This document shows positions 10,362 to 17,835 of a stretch of DNA of 64,000 nt, piece after piece. The notes under the pieces were generated by a model. It searched no databases and was not told the DNA's origin. It saw only the letters and a list, made by a program, of their open reading frames with translations. Position 1 is the first letter of the stretch, and every line of letters begins with the position of its first letter. This stretch comes from Hyphomicrobiales bacterium (GTDB lineage Bacteria; Pseudomonadota; Alphaproteobacteria; Rhizobiales; Beijerinckiaceae), in the NCBI GenBank assembly GCA_027489955.1, contig JAIXYZ010000002.1:186001-250000 (forward strand), in the 5' to 3' direction. The position numbers were made by a program, and so were the translations under genes.

Positions 10362-12689
10362 ATGCTCATCACCAAGCTCGCCCAGACGCGCAAGATCGAC
10401 CGCGAGCTCTCGCGCGACGTGCGCAGCGCGCTCGTGGAGTCGCTCTACGCGCCATTCGCCTCGCTGGTCGTGGGTGCGATTTCGGGCGTGATCGTGGGGC
10501 TGATGGCCTCGTACCGCGCCGCCGATCCCTGGCTGGTCGCCTGCTCCGCCGCCATCTTCCTGATCGGCGTCGCCCGCGTCGTCTCGGCCATGATGTACCG
10601 CCGGTACAAGCCGGGCCTGAGCCCCGACGAGGTGCGCCGCTGGGAGCGGATCTACGAGGTCGGCGCCTGGTCCTATTCCGCCCTGCTCGGCCTCATGTGC
10701 TTCCTGGCGATCCATCGCTCCGAGGACGCGGCCGTGCACCTGGCCGTCGCCACCACGACCGCCGGCTATGCCGCGGGCATCACGGGCCGCAATGCCGGCC
10801 GGCCGATCATCGCCATCGGGCAGCTCGCCCTCGCCGCGCTGCCGCTGGCCATCGCGCTCCTGATCTACGGCGACGCCTTCCATCTCATGCTGGGCATCGT
10901 CATCCTGCTCTTCGTCTACGGCATGACCGACATCACCCTGTCGATCCACGACGTGGTGATCCAGGCCCTCGTCAACACCCGCGCCAAGGCGGCTCTGGCG
11001 GTGAAATACGAGGAGCAGGCCAAGCAGTTCGACGCCGCGCTCAACAACATGTCCCACGGCCTGTGCATGTTCGATCCGAACGGGCGGCTGGTGGTGTGGA
11101 ACGAGCAGCTCTTCCAGGTCACGGGCCTCGACCGGCGGATGATCCGCGCGGGCATGGCGTCGATGGAATTGCTTCGGCTGGCGGAGACCAGCGGCATCCT
11201 CAGCTCGCGGCGCGCGCGGCGGCTCCTGGTGGAGCTCCAGCGCGAGCGCGCGAGCCGCCGGGGCGGCCAGGTGGACGTGGACCTGGCGGACGGGCGCACG
11301 CTCGCCCTGTCGGAAAGCATGATGCCCGGCGGCGAGGCCGTGACGATCTTCGAGGACATCACCGACCGCCGCCGCGCCGAGCGCCAGGTCGAGCGCATGG
11401 CCCGCTTCGACGAGCTGACGGGCCTGCCCAACCGCGGCTCCTTCCGCGAGCGCATGCATGCCGAGATCGGCCTGCTCCAGCGCCGCGGCGCGCAGTTCGC
11501 GATCCACTGGATCGACCTCGACCGGTTCAAGGTCGTCAACGACACGCTGGGCCATCCGGTGGGCGACCGCCTGCTCCAGGCCGTGGCCGAGCGCCTGCGG
11601 TCGGCGGTGCGCAAGACCGACCTCGTGGCCCGCTTCGGCGGCGACGAGTTCGTGGTCGTCCAGACGCCGATCTCCCGGCGCCGGGAAGCGGCCGCCCTCG
11701 CCGAGCGCCTGGTCGAGGCGCTGGCGATCCCGTTCGAGATCGATGGCCAGCGCATCGACGTCGGCGGCTCGGTCGGCGTGTGCCTCGCTCCCTCGGACGG
11801 CACCGATGCCGACACGCTGCAGAAGAACGCCGACATGGCGCTCTACGCCGCCAAGACCGACGGCGGCGGCTGCTTCCACTTCTTCGAGAAGACCATGAGC
11901 GCGGCGGCCCAGGCGCGCCGCTCGCTGGAGCTGGACCTGCGCGAGGCGCTCGCCCGCGGCGAGTTCGAGCTCTATTTCCAGCCGCTCGTCGACCTGAAGA
12001 GCGACGACATCACCGGCTGCGAGGCGCTGCTGCGCTGGAAGCATCCGGAGCGCGGCTTCGTTTCCCCGGCCGAGTTCATCCCCATCGCCGAGGAGACCGG
12101 GCTGATCATCCCGCTCAGCGAGTGGGTGCTGCGCGCGGCGTGCCAGGAGGCGGCGAGCTGGCCGCACGACATCCGCGTGGCGGTGAACATCTCGCCGGTC
12201 CACTTCAAGGATCCGACGCTGGTGGCCTGCGTGACGGCCGCCCTCTCCCAGTCCGGCCTGCCCGCCAGCCGCCTGGAGCTGGAGGTGACCGAGACGGTGC
12301 TGCTGCAGGACAGCGAGATGACGCTGTCGGTGATGCAGCAATTGCGCAGCCTCGGCCTTGCCATGTCGCTGGACGATTTCGGCACCGGCTACTCGTCGCT
12401 GAGCTACCTGCGCACCTATCCGTTCGACAAGATCAAGATCGACGCGTCCTTCACCCGCGGGCTGGAGAACGACGACGGGTCCATCGCCATCGTGCGCGCG
12501 GTGGCGGGAATGGGCACCGACCTCGGGATGACCATCGTGGCGGAAGGCATCGAGACGCTGGACGAGCTCGACTGCGTAAAGCGCGAAGGCTGCACGCAGG
12601 GCCAGGGCTACCTGCTCGGCCGGCCCATGCCCGCGGCGAATATCCGCGAGACGCTCGGGCGCATGCACGAGATCCGCTACGTCGCCTGA
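10362..12689 (+). CDS. Membrane GGDEF-EAL cyclic-di-GMP enzyme
   Basis: A 775-residue protein. Residues 1 to about 210 hold four to six hydrophobic helices that match no sensor domain I can name. A PAS-like segment follows (FDAALNNMSHGLCMFDPNGRL). The GGDEF domain has GGDEF at 426-430 and the inhibitory site R417-x2-D420. The EAL domain has EAL at 554-556, NISPVHF, EVTET, DDFGTGYSS and VAEGIET. Both catalytic sites look intact, so it may both make and degrade c-di-GMP. The convergent neighbour is an RpfF-like crotonase, so this protein is a candidate partner in a fatty-acid signal circuit. Confidence 0.94.
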   Translation: MLITKLAQTRKIDRELSRDVRSALVESLYAPFASLVVGAISGVIVGLMASYRAADPWLVACSAAIFLIGVARVVSAMMYRRYKPGLSPDEVRRWERIYEVGAWSYSALLGLMCFLAIHRSEDAAVHLAVATTTAGYAAGITGRNAGRPIIAIGQLALAALPLAIALLIYGDAFHLMLGIVILLFVYGMTDITLSIHDVVIQALVNTRAKAALAVKYEEQAKQFDAALNNMSHGLCMFDPNGRLVVWNEQLFQVTGLDRRMIRAGMASMELLRLAETSGILSSRRARRLLVELQRERASRRGGQVDVDLADGRTLALSESMMPGGEAVTIFEDITDRRRAERQVERMARFDELTGLPNRGSFRERMHAEIGLLQRRGAQFAIHWIDLDRFKVVNDTLGHPVGDRLLQAVAERLRSAVRKTDLVARFGGDEFVVVQTPISRRREAAALAERLVEALAIPFEIDGQRIDVGGSVGVCLAPSDGTDADTLQKNADMALYAAKTDGGGCFHFFEKTMSAAAQARRSLELDLREALARGEFELYFQPLVDLKSDDITGCEALLRWKHPERGFVSPAEFIPIAEETGLIIPLSEWVLRAACQEAASWPHDIRVAVNISPVHFKDPTLVACVTAALSQSGLPASRLELEVTETVLLQDSEMTLSVMQQLRSLGLAMSLDDFGTGYSSLSYLRTYPFDKIKIDASFTRGLENDDGSIAIVRAVAGMGTDLGMTIVAEGIETLDELDCVKREGCTQGQGYLLGRPMPAANIRETLGRMHEIRYVA

Positions 12690-12697
12690 CGGCGGCC

Positions 12698-12714
12698 GGG
12701 CTGCAGCGCAGCCC
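12698..12714. terminator. Short bidirectional hairpin between convergent genes
   Basis: GGGCTGC-AGC-GCAGCCC, seven paired bases with a three-base loop, centred in the 39-base gap between the GGDEF-EAL gene and the RpfF-like gene. There is no T tract, so this is a modest terminator candidate for both strands. Confidence 0.45.
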
Positions 12715-12728
12715 AGCGGCCCCGTCGG

Positions 12729-13682
12729 CTATTCGGCCGCCTGGGCGATGCCCAGCAGGCGGTTCTGCGCCGAGACCAGCCGCTCCATCACCTTCAGGTT
12801 CTGCTCCGACAGCTCCAGCGAGCTGTCGGCCCAGATGTCGACGATGCGCTCCAGCTCGGGCAGCGTGACGGGGTTCACCTCGCGGCTGGCGCGGTAGATC
12901 GCGCGCTGGCCGGCATGGCGGCGGCGGTTGCGCTCGATATACTCGCGCACCGCGTCCTCGCCCTGCCCGGGCTCGGCGAGGACATGGACGATGCCGAGCT
13001 CGTGCATCTCCTCGGCCGAATAGCTGGCGCCCGACATGATCATCGCCTCGGCCTTGGCCGCGCCGAGCTTGCGGGCGAGGAAGCTGGTGGCGCCCATGCC
13101 GGGGAAGAGTCCGAACATCTGCTCCGGCAGCCCGAACTTCGCGCCCTTCTCGGCGACGATGACGTTGAAGGACAGGAGCGACTCGAACCCGCCGCCCAGG
13201 GCGTCGCCCTGGACGAGGCCGATCGTGACCATCGGCAGGTTCAGGCCCTGGAGGTTCCGGTGAAGGATCCGGACGCAGGACCGGCCGTAATGGACGAGGC
13301 CGCGGCGGTCCCGGTTGCGGATCAGGCGGGTGAAGAGATTGAGGTCGCCGCCGAGGCAGAACACGCCCGGGAAGCGGGAGCCCAGCACGAGATAGCGCAG
13401 GTCGGTCTCGCGGCCCTTGAAGTGGTCCTCGATCCCGTCCTGCCAGGCGCGGAAATCGAGCAGCATCTCGGGATTGTAGCAGGGGCGGCCGCGGGGCCGC
13501 ATATGGGTCCAGAGCGTCCCGGTCTCGCCCTCGAAGCCGACCTCGAGCTGCTCGAGGCTGAAGAGCGTGCGCTCGCGCCGCTCCACCAGCCGCGGGCCCT
13601 CGGGCTTGGGCACGCCGTCCGCGCCGGTGCGGCGCGCGGCATCGAAGGGAACGACGGAAGATTCAACCGGTTTGTACGCCAT
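12729..13682 (-). CDS. Crotonase-family protein resembling DSF synthase RpfF
   Basis: A 317-residue crotonase whose core follows RpfF, the enzyme that makes diffusible signal factor (cis-2-enoic fatty acids) from acyl-ACP. Recalled RpfF features are present: FCLGGDLNLF, SCVRILH, LVQGDALGGGFE, FGLPEQMFGLFPGMGA, and a C-terminus MERLVSAQNRL. The glutamates expected to be catalytic are E167 (GGGFE) and E187 (GLPE), 20 residues apart as in RpfF. The N-terminus is about 40 residues longer. ATG 13682 has AAGGGG nine bases upstream; a TTG three codons earlier is unlikely. A simple enoyl-CoA hydratase is the alternative. Confidence 0.8.
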   Translation of the reverse strand: MAYKPVESSVVPFDAARRTGADGVPKPEGPRLVERRERTLFSLEQLEVGFEGETGTLWTHMRPRGRPCYNPEMLLDFRAWQDGIEDHFKGRETDLRYLVLGSRFPGVFCLGGDLNLFTRLIRNRDRRGLVHYGRSCVRILHRNLQGLNLPMVTIGLVQGDALGGGFESLLSFNVIVAEKGAKFGLPEQMFGLFPGMGATSFLARKLGAAKAEAMIMSGASYSAEEMHELGIVHVLAEPGQGEDAVREYIERNRRRHAGQRAIYRASREVNPVTLPELERIVDIWADSSLELSEQNLKVMERLVSAQNRLLGIAQAAE

Positions 13683-13868
13683 CTGACGCAACCCCTTAAC
13701 AATAAATCAACCATAGCAAAGTCGTTCCCAAGGCACCATCGGCGCAGGCGGGACGAAATCGGCGTAACGGCCGCGGAAAATGCTTGAGCGATCCGTATTT
13801 CGACGATCGATCAAGACGTTAACAGAAAGTAACCATAATTCCAGTTAATTTTTTGCAGTGCAAAAGAA

Positions 13869-13932: not shown

Positions 13933-15222
13933 TCAGGGGCTCGAGACGACCGAGGGCAGCCAGAGCGCGATGCCGGGGAAGAGCGCCAGTAGCAGGATCA
14001 TGAACAGCATGGCGCCGACGAAGGGCAGCGCCCCCACGATGACGTCGTCCAGCCGGCCGCTCGTGCGCAGGGACTGCACGACGTAGAGGTTGAGGCCGAC
14101 CGGCGGCGTGATCAACGCGGCCTCGATCAGGATGACGATGACGATGCCGAGCCACAGGGGATCGAAGCCGAGCGCGATCATCACGGGCGCGACGATGGGG
14201 ATCGTGGTGATCATCATGGAGAGCGTCTCCATGAAGCAGCCGAGCACGAGGTAGAACAGCACGATGGCGATGAGCATCTGGTACTGCGACAGGCCCAGGC
14301 CCGAAACCGTGCTGGTGAGGAGCTGCGTCAGCCCGATGGCAGTGATGACGAAGTTGAGGAAGTAGGCCGCGATGATGATCAGCATGATCATCGCGGTGGT
14401 GCGCATCGTGTTCTCGAAGGCCTCGATGAGCATAGCCACCGAGAGCCGCCGGAACAGGGCCGCCAGGAGCAGCGCCGCCATAACGCCGAGCGAGGCCGCC
14501 TCCGTCGGCGTCGCGATGCCGGCATAGATCGATCCCACGACGACCAGGAAGATGAAGAGCGGCGGGACGAGATCGGGCAGGACGCGGATGCGGTCGGCCC
14601 AGCTCGTCTCCACCTTCCGCCCGCCCCAGCCCGGCCGGGCAAGGCAGGCGATGACGACCAGCCCCATGAACGTCGCGGCCATGGCCAGGCCGGGCAGGAT
14701 GCCGGCCAGGTACAGTTTGGGGATCGAGGTGTCCGTCAGCACCGCGTAGACGATCATGTTGATCGAGGGCGGGATGAGGATGCCGAGCGTGCCGCCGGCC
14801 GCCAGCGTGCCGAGGAACAGCCGCTCGTTGTAGCCGTGGCGCCTGACCAGCGGCAGGGCCACCGTGCCGACCGTGGCGGCGGTCGCCACCGACGATCCCG
14901 ACGTCGCGGCGAAGATCGAGCAGGCGCCGATATTGGAGTGCATGAGCCCGCCGGGGAGCCAGGAGAGCCATTTCACCATGGCCTGGTACATGCGCTCGGC
15001 GACGCCGGAGCGCAGGAGGATCTCCCCCAGCAGCACGAACATGGGGATGGAGACGAGGAGGAAGTCGCGGCCGGCGGACCAGGCGATCTCGCCCAGGGCG
15101 AGGCTGAGCGGAGCCCGCGAGAAGAGCTGTTCCAGCACGAGGCCGAGGACGCCCAGCGCCGCCGCGACGGGGATGGAGAGGGCGAGGAGCCCGACGAGGA
15201 GAAGAAGCGATGTGCCGAGCAT
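13933..15222 (-). CDS. dctM: TRAP transporter large permease, DctM family
   Basis: A 429-residue membrane protein with about 12 hydrophobic helices, the ion-coupled permease of a tripartite uptake system. Family features include SIPMFVLLGEILLRSG, SIFAATSGSSVATAATVG and ILIPPSINMIVYAVLT. ATG 15222 lies two bases past the dctQ stop, showing tight operon organisation in the order dctP-dctQ-dctM. The substrate cannot be read from this subunit. The operon ends at the hairpin downstream. Confidence 0.95.
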   Translation of the reverse strand: MLGTSLLLLVGLLALSIPVAAALGVLGLVLEQLFSRAPLSLALGEIAWSAGRDFLLVSIPMFVLLGEILLRSGVAERMYQAMVKWLSWLPGGLMHSNIGACSIFAATSGSSVATAATVGTVALPLVRRHGYNERLFLGTLAAGGTLGILIPPSINMIVYAVLTDTSIPKLYLAGILPGLAMAATFMGLVVIACLARPGWGGRKVETSWADRIRVLPDLVPPLFIFLVVVGSIYAGIATPTEAASLGVMAALLLAALFRRLSVAMLIEAFENTMRTTAMIMLIIIAAYFLNFVITAIGLTQLLTSTVSGLGLSQYQMLIAIVLFYLVLGCFMETLSMMITTIPIVAPVMIALGFDPLWLGIVIVILIEAALITPPVGLNLYVVQSLRTSGRLDDVIVGALPFVGAMLFMILLLALFPGIALWLPSVVSSP

Positions 15223-15223
15223 G

Positions 15224-15832
15224 TCAGGCGTCTCCCGCAACGGGTTTCAGGCTGGCCGTATGGGAACTTTCCGAGGCGGCCTCTTCCTCCAGCGAGCGGG
15301 CGCCGGCAAGGGCCCGGACGCGGGCGAGATCGCCCGCGGCGAGGGCGATCGCGACCCGCAGGGTCAGGGGCACGACGGTGAAGATGAACAGCGCCAGGCC
15401 CGCCAGCCAGAGCGATTGGGGGATCCAGAGCGGCGTGGCGAGCGGGGTCGTCGCGCGGGTCGCAAAGAGCAGCGTGTCGCCAAGGACGGCGTGGGCGCGC
15501 ACGGTCAGGTAGCCGACGAAGACCGTCAGCGACAGGAGCGAGAGCAGGTCCAGCACGGCGGCGACCCGTAGCGGCAGCCGGGAATACAGGGCATCGACCC
15601 GCACATGGCCGCGCTGCAGCAGCGTGAAGGACAGCGCCCAGGCCGTGCCGACGGCGAAGGCGTAGCCGGTCAGCTCGTCGGCGCCGCCGAGGGTGATGGA
15701 GAAGAGCTTGCGGACCAGCACGTCGAAGCCGACGAGCGCCGCCGCCAGCAGCATGACCGCGCCGGCGACGCGCACCGCGATCCGCGAGAGGCGCTCGGCC
15801 AGGGCCAGCCAGGTGTCCAGGAATGAGGTCAT
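15224..15832 (-). CDS. dctQ: TRAP transporter small permease, DctQ family
   Basis: A 202-residue protein with four hydrophobic helices. The DctQ signature is visible: an N-terminal helix followed by DVLVRKLFS, then GADELTGYAFAVGTAWAL and a hydrophilic HVRVDALYSRLP. It pairs with DctM in the membrane. The C-terminal 35 residues are charged and longer than usual. It lies between dctP (94 bases upstream) and dctM (essentially abutting). Confidence 0.92.
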   Translation of the reverse strand: MTSFLDTWLALAERLSRIAVRVAGAVMLLAAALVGFDVLVRKLFSITLGGADELTGYAFAVGTAWALSFTLLQRGHVRVDALYSRLPLRVAAVLDLLSLLSLTVFVGYLTVRAHAVLGDTLLFATRATTPLATPLWIPQSLWLAGLALFIFTVVPLTLRVAIALAAGDLARVRALAGARSLEEEAASESSHTASLKPVAGDA

Positions 15833-15926
15833 GACGGGTCGCCCCTCCTCGCGCAGGGTGGAAAAGGGGCGGCGGCCGGGGTCCGACCGCCGCCAGTCGA
15901 TCGGTCAAGGCGGCTAGGGGGTCAGG

Positions 15927-16988
15927 TCACTTGACGGGAGCCGCGATGCCGACGATCTCTCCGACCGTCTTGTTCCACTCCGCGGCGCACTCGGCGCCGC
16001 AGCGCGCGGCCCATTTGGGCACGACCACCTCGGACAGGGCCTTCTTCAGCACCTGGCGGTCCGCATTGTTGACCTGGACGAGGGTCATCTTCGCTTTCGT
16101 GCCCATCGTGCAGGTGTCCTTGCCGATGTTGCAGTCGATGCCCTGGCGCGTCTCCTCGTCGGTGGCGCTCCAGATGCGATCCTCGAAGGCGGAGATTTCC
16201 TTCTGGAGGAAGTCGCGGACCTTGGGATCCAGCCCGTCCCAGCGGCGCTTGTTGACGGCGAACATCACCTGGCTCCAGCCCAGCGGCAGGGCGTGGATGT
16301 GGGTCGCGACCTCGTGCCACTTGGCCGAATTGCCCGACAGGGTGCCGGTGACCGCGCAATCCACCACCTTGTTCTGCATGGCCGGCACGACCTCGTTGAA
16401 CGCGAGCGTGATGCCGGTGCCGCCGAGCGAGTCGATGAACTCGGCGAGCGAGGTTCCGGCGACGCGCACCTTCTTGCCCTTGATGTCGGCGAGGCTCCTG
16501 ATCTCGGCGTTGCAGTAGAGGACCTGCGCCGGATAGGGCCAGATGCCCAGGACCTTGATGCCGAACTTCTCGCCGTAGAACTTGTCGTAGACCGGCTTGT
16601 AGGCATCGGAGACCTGGCGCGCCGTGCCGATGTCGGGGGCGATGCCGGCCAGATCGATCGCCTCGTTGCGCGGATCGTCGCCGGCGACGTAGCCCAGCAC
16701 GGTGGCGCCGAAATCCACGACGCCGAGGCGCATCAGGCGGAAGATCTCGGGGCCCTTCAGACCCATCTCGTTGAACGGGGTGATCTCGGCGGTGATGGCG
16801 CCCCTGGACTTCTCCGTGATCTCCTTGGACCAGAAGGGCTGTTCGAAATTCTTGTACTGGGAGAGGTTGCCCCAGGCGCCGAGCACCTTCAGCTGGGTGC
16901 GGGGCAGGTCCTGCGCGGCGGCTGGCAGGGCGAGAAGGGCAAGGCCGGCGCAGGCCGCCATGCCGACGGCACGGGTCAGGGTCTTCAT
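15927..16988 (-). CDS. dctP: TRAP transporter periplasmic solute receptor, DctP family
   Basis: A 353-residue secreted binding protein. Residues 1-26 are a signal peptide (hydrophobic AGLALLALPAAAQ). Family features are ARQVSDAYKPVYDKF, the SLADIKGKKVRVAG stretch with the conserved arginine that usually binds a carboxylate, and PLGWSQVMFAVNKRRWDGL. The mature part has six cysteines (YCNAE, DCAVTG, DCNIGKDTC, RCGAEC), unusual for the family and compatible with disulfides. AGGAGA lies just before ATG 16988. The carboxylate ligand is unknown; the adjacent D-glutamate cyclase-like gene offers a hint. Confidence 0.93.
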   Translation of the reverse strand: MKTLTRAVGMAACAGLALLALPAAAQDLPRTQLKVLGAWGNLSQYKNFEQPFWSKEITEKSRGAITAEITPFNEMGLKGPEIFRLMRLGVVDFGATVLGYVAGDDPRNEAIDLAGIAPDIGTARQVSDAYKPVYDKFYGEKFGIKVLGIWPYPAQVLYCNAEIRSLADIKGKKVRVAGTSLAEFIDSLGGTGITLAFNEVVPAMQNKVVDCAVTGTLSGNSAKWHEVATHIHALPLGWSQVMFAVNKRRWDGLDPKVRDFLQKEISAFEDRIWSATDEETRQGIDCNIGKDTCTMGTKAKMTLVQVNNADRQVLKKALSEVVVPKWAARCGAECAAEWNKTVGEIVGIAAPVK

Positions 16989-17025
16989 CACGTTCTCCTC
17001 TGGTTTTCGATTGTAGGGGGCGCGC

Positions 17026-17835
17026 TTATGGGACGGCGAGCCTGCTGTTGCGCACATCCGTCACGAGCATCGAACCGGGCGCGTGGGTGATGGCGAAGCT
17101 GGGATTGGCGGCGGCGATCACGGCCTGGGGCGTGACCCCGCATGCCCAGAAGACGGGGATGTCGCCGCTGCGGACCTCGACCGGGTCGCCGTAATCGGGC
17201 CGGGCCAGATCGGCGATGCCGATGGCGGCCGGGTCGCCGATATGGACCGGGGCGCCATGCACGGCGGGATAGCGCGAGGTGATCTGGATCGCGCGGATCG
17301 CGTCGGCCGCGCCCATGGGGCGCATGGAGACCACCATCGGCCCCGCGAACGGGCCGGCGGGGCGGCAGGGGATCGTGGTGCGGTACATCGGGACGTTGCC
17401 GCCCCCCTCCAGGTGGCGCACCCCGACGCCCTCCACGGCCAGCGCCTCCTCGAAGGTGAACGAGCAGCCGATCAGGAAGGCGACGAGGTCGTCCCGCCAC
17501 CAGCGCAGGATGTCGGTCGGCTCGTCGACGAGCTTGCCGTCCTGCCACACGCGAAACCGGGGCAGGTCGGTGCGCACGTCGATCCCCTCGCCCGCGTCGG
17601 GGACGGTGGGATCGCCGGGCTCGGTCACCGCGATCAGCGGGCAGGGCTTGGGATTGCGCTGGCAGAAGCGCAGGAAATCCGCCGCCTGCCGCTCGGACAG
17701 GACGACGAGGTTGCACTGGACGAAGCCGGGCGCCAGGCCTGCCGTGTGCCCCGTCAGCCGCCCGGACCGGGCCCCGAGCCGGACGGACCGGGCATCGGGA
17801 TAACGATGGGGAGCGGGATCGACTTCGACGAGCAT
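17026..17835 (-). CDS. D-glutamate cyclase-like / DUF1445 (UPF0317) protein
   Basis: A 269-residue member of the DUF1445 family, recognised by [21 protein letters not shown], the central SFTFEEAL with GCS, and the C-terminal [12 protein letters not shown]. Bacterial members are usually annotated as putative hydro-lyases; the mammalian homologue converts D-glutamate to 5-oxo-D-proline. It lies upstream of dctP (37 bases) in the same direction, so the TRAP system probably imports its substrate or a relative of it. Cytosolic; no signal peptide. Confidence 0.88.

Follow-up and report, generated by a model that had tools for sequence, protein, structure and literature searches.

An RpfF-like crotonase convergent with a six-helix membrane GGDEF-EAL protein in a Hyphomicrobiales bacterium: a candidate variant of the DSF/c-di-GMP circuit

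The window analysed here, a stretch of 64,000 nucleotides from contig JAIXYZ010000002.1 of a Hyphomicrobiales bacterium (assembly GCA_027489955.1; genome G000, 3.13 Mb in 13 contigs), carries side by side a crotonase gene related to rpfF, the synthase gene of diffusible signal factor (DSF) systems, and a gene for a membrane protein with the GGDEF and EAL domains of cyclic di-GMP (c-di-GMP) signalling (Table 1). Both genes lie where a first-pass annotation of this DNA had placed them; their orientation, which it did not give, is convergent, with the stops separated by 39 bases, and since the genes stand tail to tail they do not form an operon. The pair is real and conserved across distant bacteria, and it is a candidate for a DSF-type signalling circuit of two genes.

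Table 1. Features of the convergent gene pair, in positions of the window
Feature	Position	Strand	Basis
6TM-PAS_7-GGDEF-EAL membrane protein, 775 aa	10362..12689	+	Pfam, active-site table, predicted helices, conserved neighbour
Six-helix membrane domain at the N-terminus (residues 1-225), a candidate for signal input	10362..11036	+	AlphaFold2 helices, relatives, fold comparison
PAS_7 domain, about residues 226-345	11037..11396	+	Pfam
GGDEF domain with intact active site and RxxD I-site	11397..11876	+	Pfam, motif and column checks
EAL domain, checked catalytic residues intact	11907..12686	+	Pfam, motif and column checks
Intergenic gap between the convergent stops	12690..12728	.	39 bases, G+C-rich, short inverted repeat; from reading of the sequence
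RpfF-like DSF synthase (putative), crotonase superfamily, 317 aa	12729..13682	-	phmmer, NF006452, tree, structure model, Glu pair E167/E187

The crotonase reads from an ATG at 13682, preceded by AAGGGG, to a stop that ends at 12729, and an alternative TTG start at 13691 is possible. Among solved structures its top phmmer matches are to RpfF, headed by 7zq7 (3.7e-54) and 3m6m (8.4e-52), with 6dgn and 5fus near 1e-44, and the next match after these is a hydratase with an E value of 1.1e-17. Aligned identity amounts to 40.6% to 7zq7, 39.0% to 3m6m and 34.1% to 6dgn, and to 16-24% for six hydratases of the same genome, a set that excludes the sub-threshold fragment L008. The claim of the first-pass annotation that both glutamates expected in RpfF are kept is borne out by alignment, as E167 and E187 (E170 and E190 if counted from the TTG) fall on E141 and E161 of Xanthomonas RpfF, the catalytic pair. 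Across 73 family rows the position of E141 holds Glu in 69 and Asp in 4, that of E161 holds Glu in 72 and Asp in 1, and that of W258 is Trp throughout. The predicted model of the enzyme, with a mean predicted local distance difference test score (pLDDT) of 85, superposes on RpfF 3m6n with a target TM score of 0.93 and a root-mean-square deviation (rmsd) of 1.6 Å, and on DfsA 5fus with 0.92 and 1.7 Å; ranks 1-12 of the structural matches are taken by 5fus, 3m6n, 3m6m, 7zq7 and 6dgn (target TM 0.90-0.93, rmsd 1.6-2.0 Å), and other crotonases reach at most 0.84 among the best 50 matches listed. A tree of 82 rows separates the six hydratases of the genome from the 76 rows of RpfF type, among them three RpfF from the PDB, with support of 100/98, so that the crotonase clusters with RpfF as had been proposed; the tree has long branches, and its bootstrap had not settled.

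An alternative that we regard as improbable assigns the RpfF-like protein a housekeeping role, as a hydratase or thioesterase without a signal product, in which case the linkage would reflect fatty-acid metabolism coupled to c-di-GMP. The NCBIfam models offer this view some footing, as the model passed, NF006452 (374 bits, cut-off 177), names only a ‘crotonase/enoyl-CoA hydratase family protein’, and the score against the RpfF equivalog NF053515 is 209.5 bits where 550 are called for. The latter cut-off is narrow, because L047, whose rpfF gene has an RpfC-like kinase and a regulator of the REC-HD-GYP type as neighbours, likewise falls under it with 224.2 bits. A housekeeping role is further opposed by the retention of the Glu pair and of W258 across the family, by the grouping with the three solved RpfF, by a patchy presence unlike that of a core hydratase, with RpfF at E ≤ 1e-40 in 53 of the order’s 397 genomes, and by the signalling proteins that neighbour the gene in 47 of these 53. 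The enzyme is filed here as RpfF-like, on the RpfF branch of the crotonases, and in our judgement it is very probably a synthase of the DSF type.

Within the partner protein, Pfam places PAS_7 at residues 227-341, GGDEF at 348-502 and EAL at 525-755; residues 1-226 gave no Pfam match at E ≤ 0.001, nor did the membrane domain of its linked relatives when scanned. The earlier description of a membrane protein with intact cyclase and phosphodiesterase motifs holds, with RxxD, GGDEF and the checked EAL residues all present and six helices predicted. In an AlphaFold2 model built from only six sequences, residues 2-231 are all-helical and include six helices of membrane length (32-53, 56-85, 88-119, 123-143, 148-168 and 172-231), the last of which extends as a long helix to the PAS domain (mean pLDDT 78). 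Among 25 proteins linked to rpfF, L205 being counted with them, the checked EAL catalytic residues and the Asp and Glu of GGDEF are invariant; the first Gly of GGDEF is replaced by Ala in 2, and the I-site Arg is retained in 15. Several ‘odd’ EAL motifs returned by a pattern count proved, on checking column by column, to be misses of the pattern. Two members of the window’s clade (L042 and L044) retain the membrane domain and have neither a PAS match nor room for a PAS domain before GGDEF; if the partner senses DSF, the membrane domain is therefore a better candidate for this function than the PAS domain.

The neighbours of RpfF were classed by blastp against the domains of the window and of L087, a locus of another design that is described below. 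Among the 53 RpfF genomes of the order, a gene for a membrane GGDEF-EAL protein adjoins rpfF in 15, and in 1 a GGDEF-EAL gene that is cut by the contig end; the neighbours are an RpfC-like kinase together with a REC-GGDEF-EAL regulator in 29 (the regulator is split over frames in L092, and 1.4 kb separate kinase and rpfF in L101), and an RpfC-like kinase with another partner in 2, which makes up the 47 genomes with a c-di-GMP or RpfC-type protein beside RpfF. The two loci of genome G033 (L105 and L110) stand outside this tally, and L080 and L110 are classed as GGDEF-EAL with the membrane domain not recognised. The clade of RpfF to which the window belongs comprises 16 rows with support of 100/100 and includes Methylobacterium soli, Maritalea mediterranea and a metagenome-assembled genome (MAG) of Sphingobium; in 13 of the 16 the gene for the membrane protein is convergent with rpfF, within about 60 bases, and the rest consist of a contig-cut GGDEF-EAL gene (L080), a contig-edge case (L084) and one locus with another gene (L043). 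Conservation of the pair, by which the first-pass annotation had proposed to check its idea, is thus found in most of this clade and in 15 of the 53 RpfF genomes of the order. Neither a crotonase placed among hydratases nor a lack of conservation, two outcomes that it had named as refuting, was observed. A close relative from a pond MAG (L040), whose crotonase is 92% identical to that of the window, lies on the same contig as L078 and was left out of trees and tallies. Eight other genes of the window were sought in the fetched flanks of the clade, and 7 of the 8 turned up in the sister genome L078; the only others were weak DctM matches (36%) in L080 and L082; as the flanking genes are not otherwise shared, it is the pair that stays together. 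It occurs, moreover, in convergent and in tandem arrangements and in several lineages. Distances within the pair correlate, with r=0.908 over 13 loci and 0.877 over 24 loci and 0 of 2000 permutations as high, in a test that ignores the shared ancestry of the host genomes.

One could suppose that the two genes are neighbours by chance or hitch-hiking. The tail-to-tail arrangement, not that of an operon, is compatible with this, as are the 6 of 53 genomes of the order that have no recognised partner beside rpfF, and L043, in which an open reading frame (ORF) resembling an RTX repeat protein takes the partner’s place; in one of the 6 (G213) the rpfF locus ends at a contig edge and a membrane gene stands at the edge of another contig (L205). 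The pair is nevertheless kept in different flanking contexts, in both arrangements and in several lineages, and the window’s own genome has just 6 EAL matches in all; because EAL matches are so few and the pair recurs in other surroundings, the adjacency is more than chance, and coincidence is very hard to credit. A functional tie between the synthase and the membrane c-di-GMP protein is in our judgement quite likely. Two further groups of loci may be recorded at this point. In three genomes of genus g69, RpfF-like genes without a recognised signalling neighbour were seen (L131, L133, L137), their relatives being of the RpfC type, and in L104 (12063-12764) and L134 (12395-13099) tandem genes for RpfF and the membrane GGDEF-EAL protein are followed by an extra ORF (233-234 aa) that weakly matches RpfF/crotonase.

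At other loci of the order an RpfC-like kinase and a REC-GGDEF-EAL regulator mostly occupy the slot beside rpfF, and it appears from this that partners have been exchanged. On the RpfF tree the label ‘membrane partner’ needs 8 changes, at least 5 of which are forced by starred branches, and the label for RpfC with REC-GGDEF-EAL needs 10, at least 6 of them forced. On a quick tree of GGDEF-EAL proteins, in which the genome’s own EAL loci L120 and L122 (no usable frame) and L123 are not included, 7 changes are required for the linked membrane proteins, of which 4 or more are forced; five of these proteins (f29) fall among 18 unlinked ones, whereas the REC-GGDEF-EAL regulators form one clade. All but one of the 18 unlinked proteins come from genomes without RpfF at E ≤ 1e-40; the other, L197, comes from G375, which has an RpfF locus of the RpfC type elsewhere, and L200 is a 3.7-kb contig whose neighbours lie outside view. 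As read from these trees, in which loss and gain are indistinguishable, recruitment of the membrane protein to RpfF on more than one occasion is the simplest reading. Proteins of the same composition, with membrane, PAS, GGDEF and EAL domains and with no RpfF found beside them, are encoded at L187-L201, L203, L204 and L206 and make up a broad family.

The commoner design of the order is exemplified by L087 (3919-9693), where the genes for RpfF and an RpfC-like kinase converge and a REC-GGDEF-EAL regulator occupies the place of RpfG with its HD-GYP domain; the kinase has the composition HisKA-HATPase-REC-Hpt with an N-terminal region that reads as membrane, and the regulator also has a PAS domain. 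A description of this arrangement beside RpfF was not found in the literature searched. In L113 (10419-14587), L116 (4558-8738) and possibly L209-L221 and L223, an RpfC-like kinase has a REC protein of 529-694 aa as its neighbour. This protein is REC-PAS-HisKA-HATPase in L113, the only member of this group to be domain-scanned, so that the relay there may end in a second kinase.

In wider samples, RpfF was found at E ≤ 1e-30 in 63 of 398 genomes of the phylum and in 22 of 337 of the class, and 40 loci were fetched from these samples. The arrangement of the window occurs in none of the 40. They comprise an RpfC-like kinase with a REC-HD-GYP regulator (7), with another REC protein that was not domain-scanned (14), with a REC-GGDEF-EAL regulator (2) or alone (4), a piece of a kinase at a contig edge (1), a GGDEF-EAL gene without a match to the membrane domain (7) and nothing recognised (5). 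The same procedure thus recovers RpfC/RpfG and RpfR loci, for in L241, the one checked of the seven GGDEF-EAL cases, the partner is RpfR (6dgg, 7.5e-64; FI chain 6dga, 1.5e-31). At L235 (9688-11625) a GGDEF-EAL protein is encoded beside RpfF on the same strand, and by eye its N-terminus resembles a helix-turn-helix of the MerR type.

Published work names two core routes of DSF perception, RpfC/RpfG and RpfR, both convergent with rpfF (PMC4504480). RpfR is described as the c-di-GMP receptor for Burkholderia diffusible signal factor (BDSF) that is widespread in Beta- and Gammaproteobacteria (PMC8846402). In Leptospirillum, rpfF, rpfC and rpfG all run in one direction (PMC8357829), and for Bradyrhizobium it is an RpfB homologue that is treated (PMC10226988). 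An account of an alphaproteobacterial RpfF beside a membrane GGDEF-EAL protein was not found among titles and abstract openings, a scope that leaves most subscription journals outside. The window resembles the RpfF/RpfR system of Burkholderia and Cronobacter, which responds to BDSF, in that the synthase is convergent with a single PAS-bearing GGDEF-EAL protein (PMC4504480, PMC6361424), and it shares the one-component logic of that system. RpfR, however, is soluble (PMC4504480) and carries an FI domain at its N-terminus and a PAS domain that binds DSF (PMC6361424), whereas the partner in the window has a predicted six-helix membrane domain in the place of FI, its PAS_7 has no sequence match to the PAS of RpfR, and some members of its clade lack a PAS domain altogether. 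With the Xanthomonas type, RpfF with RpfC/RpfG, the window has in common a synthase convergent with a sensor gene, membrane input and c-di-GMP output, but Pfam finds no histidine kinase, REC, Hpt or HD-GYP domain in its partner, and the membrane domain bears no similarity by profile to the RpfC-like sensor. The loci that join an RpfC-like kinase and a REC-GGDEF-EAL regulator to RpfF belong to the same taxonomic order and show the same convergent slot and output domains; they operate as a two-component relay, and their regulators form a clade of their own, whereas in the window a membrane GGDEF-EAL protein would act directly. In its make-up the pair is a variant of the DSF/c-di-GMP circuit that is neither RpfF/RpfR nor RpfF/RpfC.

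The first-pass annotation had gone further and proposed a receptor design unlike both known routes, with the membrane protein in the role of receptor. The difference in design fits what was found: 37 matches to the RpfC-like kinase occur elsewhere in the window’s own genome, none of which reaches its sensor residues 1-181, predicted membrane helices stand where RpfR has FI, and the PAS segment of the partner, compared at the level of sequence with the PAS of RpfR, gave 17 matches at E values of up to 10, none of them RpfR. That a cis-2-enoic acid is made and that the membrane protein is its receptor are proposals, and proteins of the same type also occur away from RpfF, mostly in genomes without it. 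The single HD-GYP (PF13487) match of the genome lies on contig 4 at 139529-139990 (L039/L147); another of its EAL regions (L148) did not enter the comparisons.

The reading that we favour, with moderate confidence, is that of a two-gene DSF-type circuit in which the membrane protein replaces the RpfC-RpfG phosphorelay or the soluble RpfR. It builds on the family of the synthase, the intact active sites, a pairing kept over long spans of evolution and a place beside rpfF that corresponds to that of rpfC or rpfR, for the convergent slot is elsewhere filled by an RpfC-like kinase with a REC-GGDEF-EAL regulator (29/53), by an RpfC-like kinase with a REC-HD-GYP regulator (7/40) or by RpfR (L241). 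In such a circuit, whose product, ligand binding and direction of change in c-di-GMP we infer, the RpfF-like enzyme would make a cis-2-unsaturated fatty acid, probably from 3-hydroxyacyl-ACP as known members of its family do, and the acid would partition into or cross the membrane. There it would be sensed by the partner, most likely through the six-helix domain, as this is kept where the PAS domain is missing, and the state of the sensor would be relayed along the long helix to the PAS/GGDEF/EAL part and shift c-di-GMP, the EAL phosphodiesterase being the more likely regulated output.

What the six-helix domain may bind can be approached through its relatives. By profile comparison it is clearly related (100%) to the membrane domains of unlinked GGDEF-EAL proteins. 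The best alignment of its model is to human adenylyl cyclase 5 (8sl3, membrane domain), with a Z score of 11.9 and an rmsd of 4.4 Å over 217 residues, followed by ImcA (Z 10.7, rmsd 3.8 Å, 188 aligned) and then by adenylyl cyclases 9 and 8, an alignment that only re-ranks Foldseek matches. The membrane domains of mammalian membrane adenylyl cyclases are reported to be lipid receptors, and so is that of Rv1625c, a bacterial cyclase, whose ligands are given as mono-unsaturated C18 acids (PMC11606603, PMC12505454); ImcA is a six-helix membrane diguanylate cyclase (PMC10904736). Like the partner in the window, the adenylyl cyclases and ImcA place an output domain for a nucleotide messenger after a predicted six-helix domain (PMC10904736 for ImcA). 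The adenylyl cyclases have other catalytic domains, and the matches, which are of fold and not of sequence, lie below the level at which they become telling for helical bundles. The likeness in fold to these reported lipid receptors is suggestive only.

Several observations weigh against the membrane protein being a receptor of the pair’s own signal. Its membrane domain shows no similarity to the RpfC-like sensor (profile probability 0.6%), and it is found at E ≤ 1e-6 in 106 of 397 genomes of the order, just 19 of which also have RpfF (E ≤ 1e-40); a domain so often present where RpfF is absent may well have a ligand other than DSF. The Z score of 11.9 is under the value of about 13 below which helical bundles may share only a common arrangement, and Foldseek with a model of the membrane and PAS domains gave no match at E ≤ 0.001. 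Among 10 genomes with a partnerless RpfF locus, the membrane domain is present at E ≤ 1e-5 in 3, namely G500 and G560, where rpfF stands alone and the domain is encoded only elsewhere in the genome, and G033, where it is part of a GGDEF-EAL gene that adjoins a second RpfF (L110). In a rival arrangement the synthase makes DSF and the neighbour is its regulated target or its controller, the receptor for DSF lying elsewhere; the neighbour might, for example, sense membrane state, redox or another ligand and adjust RpfF or c-di-GMP in parallel. The many genomes that have this type of protein without RpfF at the threshold used, the lack of likeness to the RpfC-like sensor and a PAS_7 domain without a sequence match to the PAS of RpfR all speak for it. 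We hold it to be unlikely all the same, though it is the strongest of the rivals, because the slot beside rpfF is otherwise taken mostly by an RpfC-like protein or RpfR, because an RpfC-like protein and a membrane GGDEF-EAL protein never occur together beside one rpfF in the loci classed, and because nothing in the window’s own genome matches the sensor region of the RpfC-like kinase. That the membrane protein may itself be the receptor is put at a little short of even odds.

If the two-gene circuit is taken to its furthest consequence, the pair would represent a third type of DSF receptor, in which a six-helix membrane domain, comparable to the lipid-receptor domains of adenylyl cyclases, binds the cis-2-enoic acid that the cell itself makes and acts on GGDEF-EAL without an intermediate, having been recruited to RpfF repeatedly from a family of membrane GGDEF-EAL proteins that is broadly represented in the Alphaproteobacteria. 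We advance this only tentatively. Were it so, relatives in genomes without RpfF might listen to the fatty-acid signals of other species.

Upstream of rpfF the window holds a set of genes for a tripartite ATP-independent periplasmic (TRAP) transporter (DctM, DctQ and DctP-like, named by reading the sequence) at 13933-17057; in the flank of the sister genome the best DctM match is 48% identical, compared with 91% for prfC.

Within one alphaproteobacterial order, 53 of 397 genomes thus contain RpfF, and in 47 of these its neighbours are c-di-GMP or RpfC-type proteins, in designs of which no account was found in the literature searched. If the membrane GGDEF-EAL protein should prove to be the receptor, one membrane protein would unite c-di-GMP with cell-to-cell signalling by fatty acids, and there would be a candidate class of ligands for the sensing domain of a large family that is so far uncharacterised.

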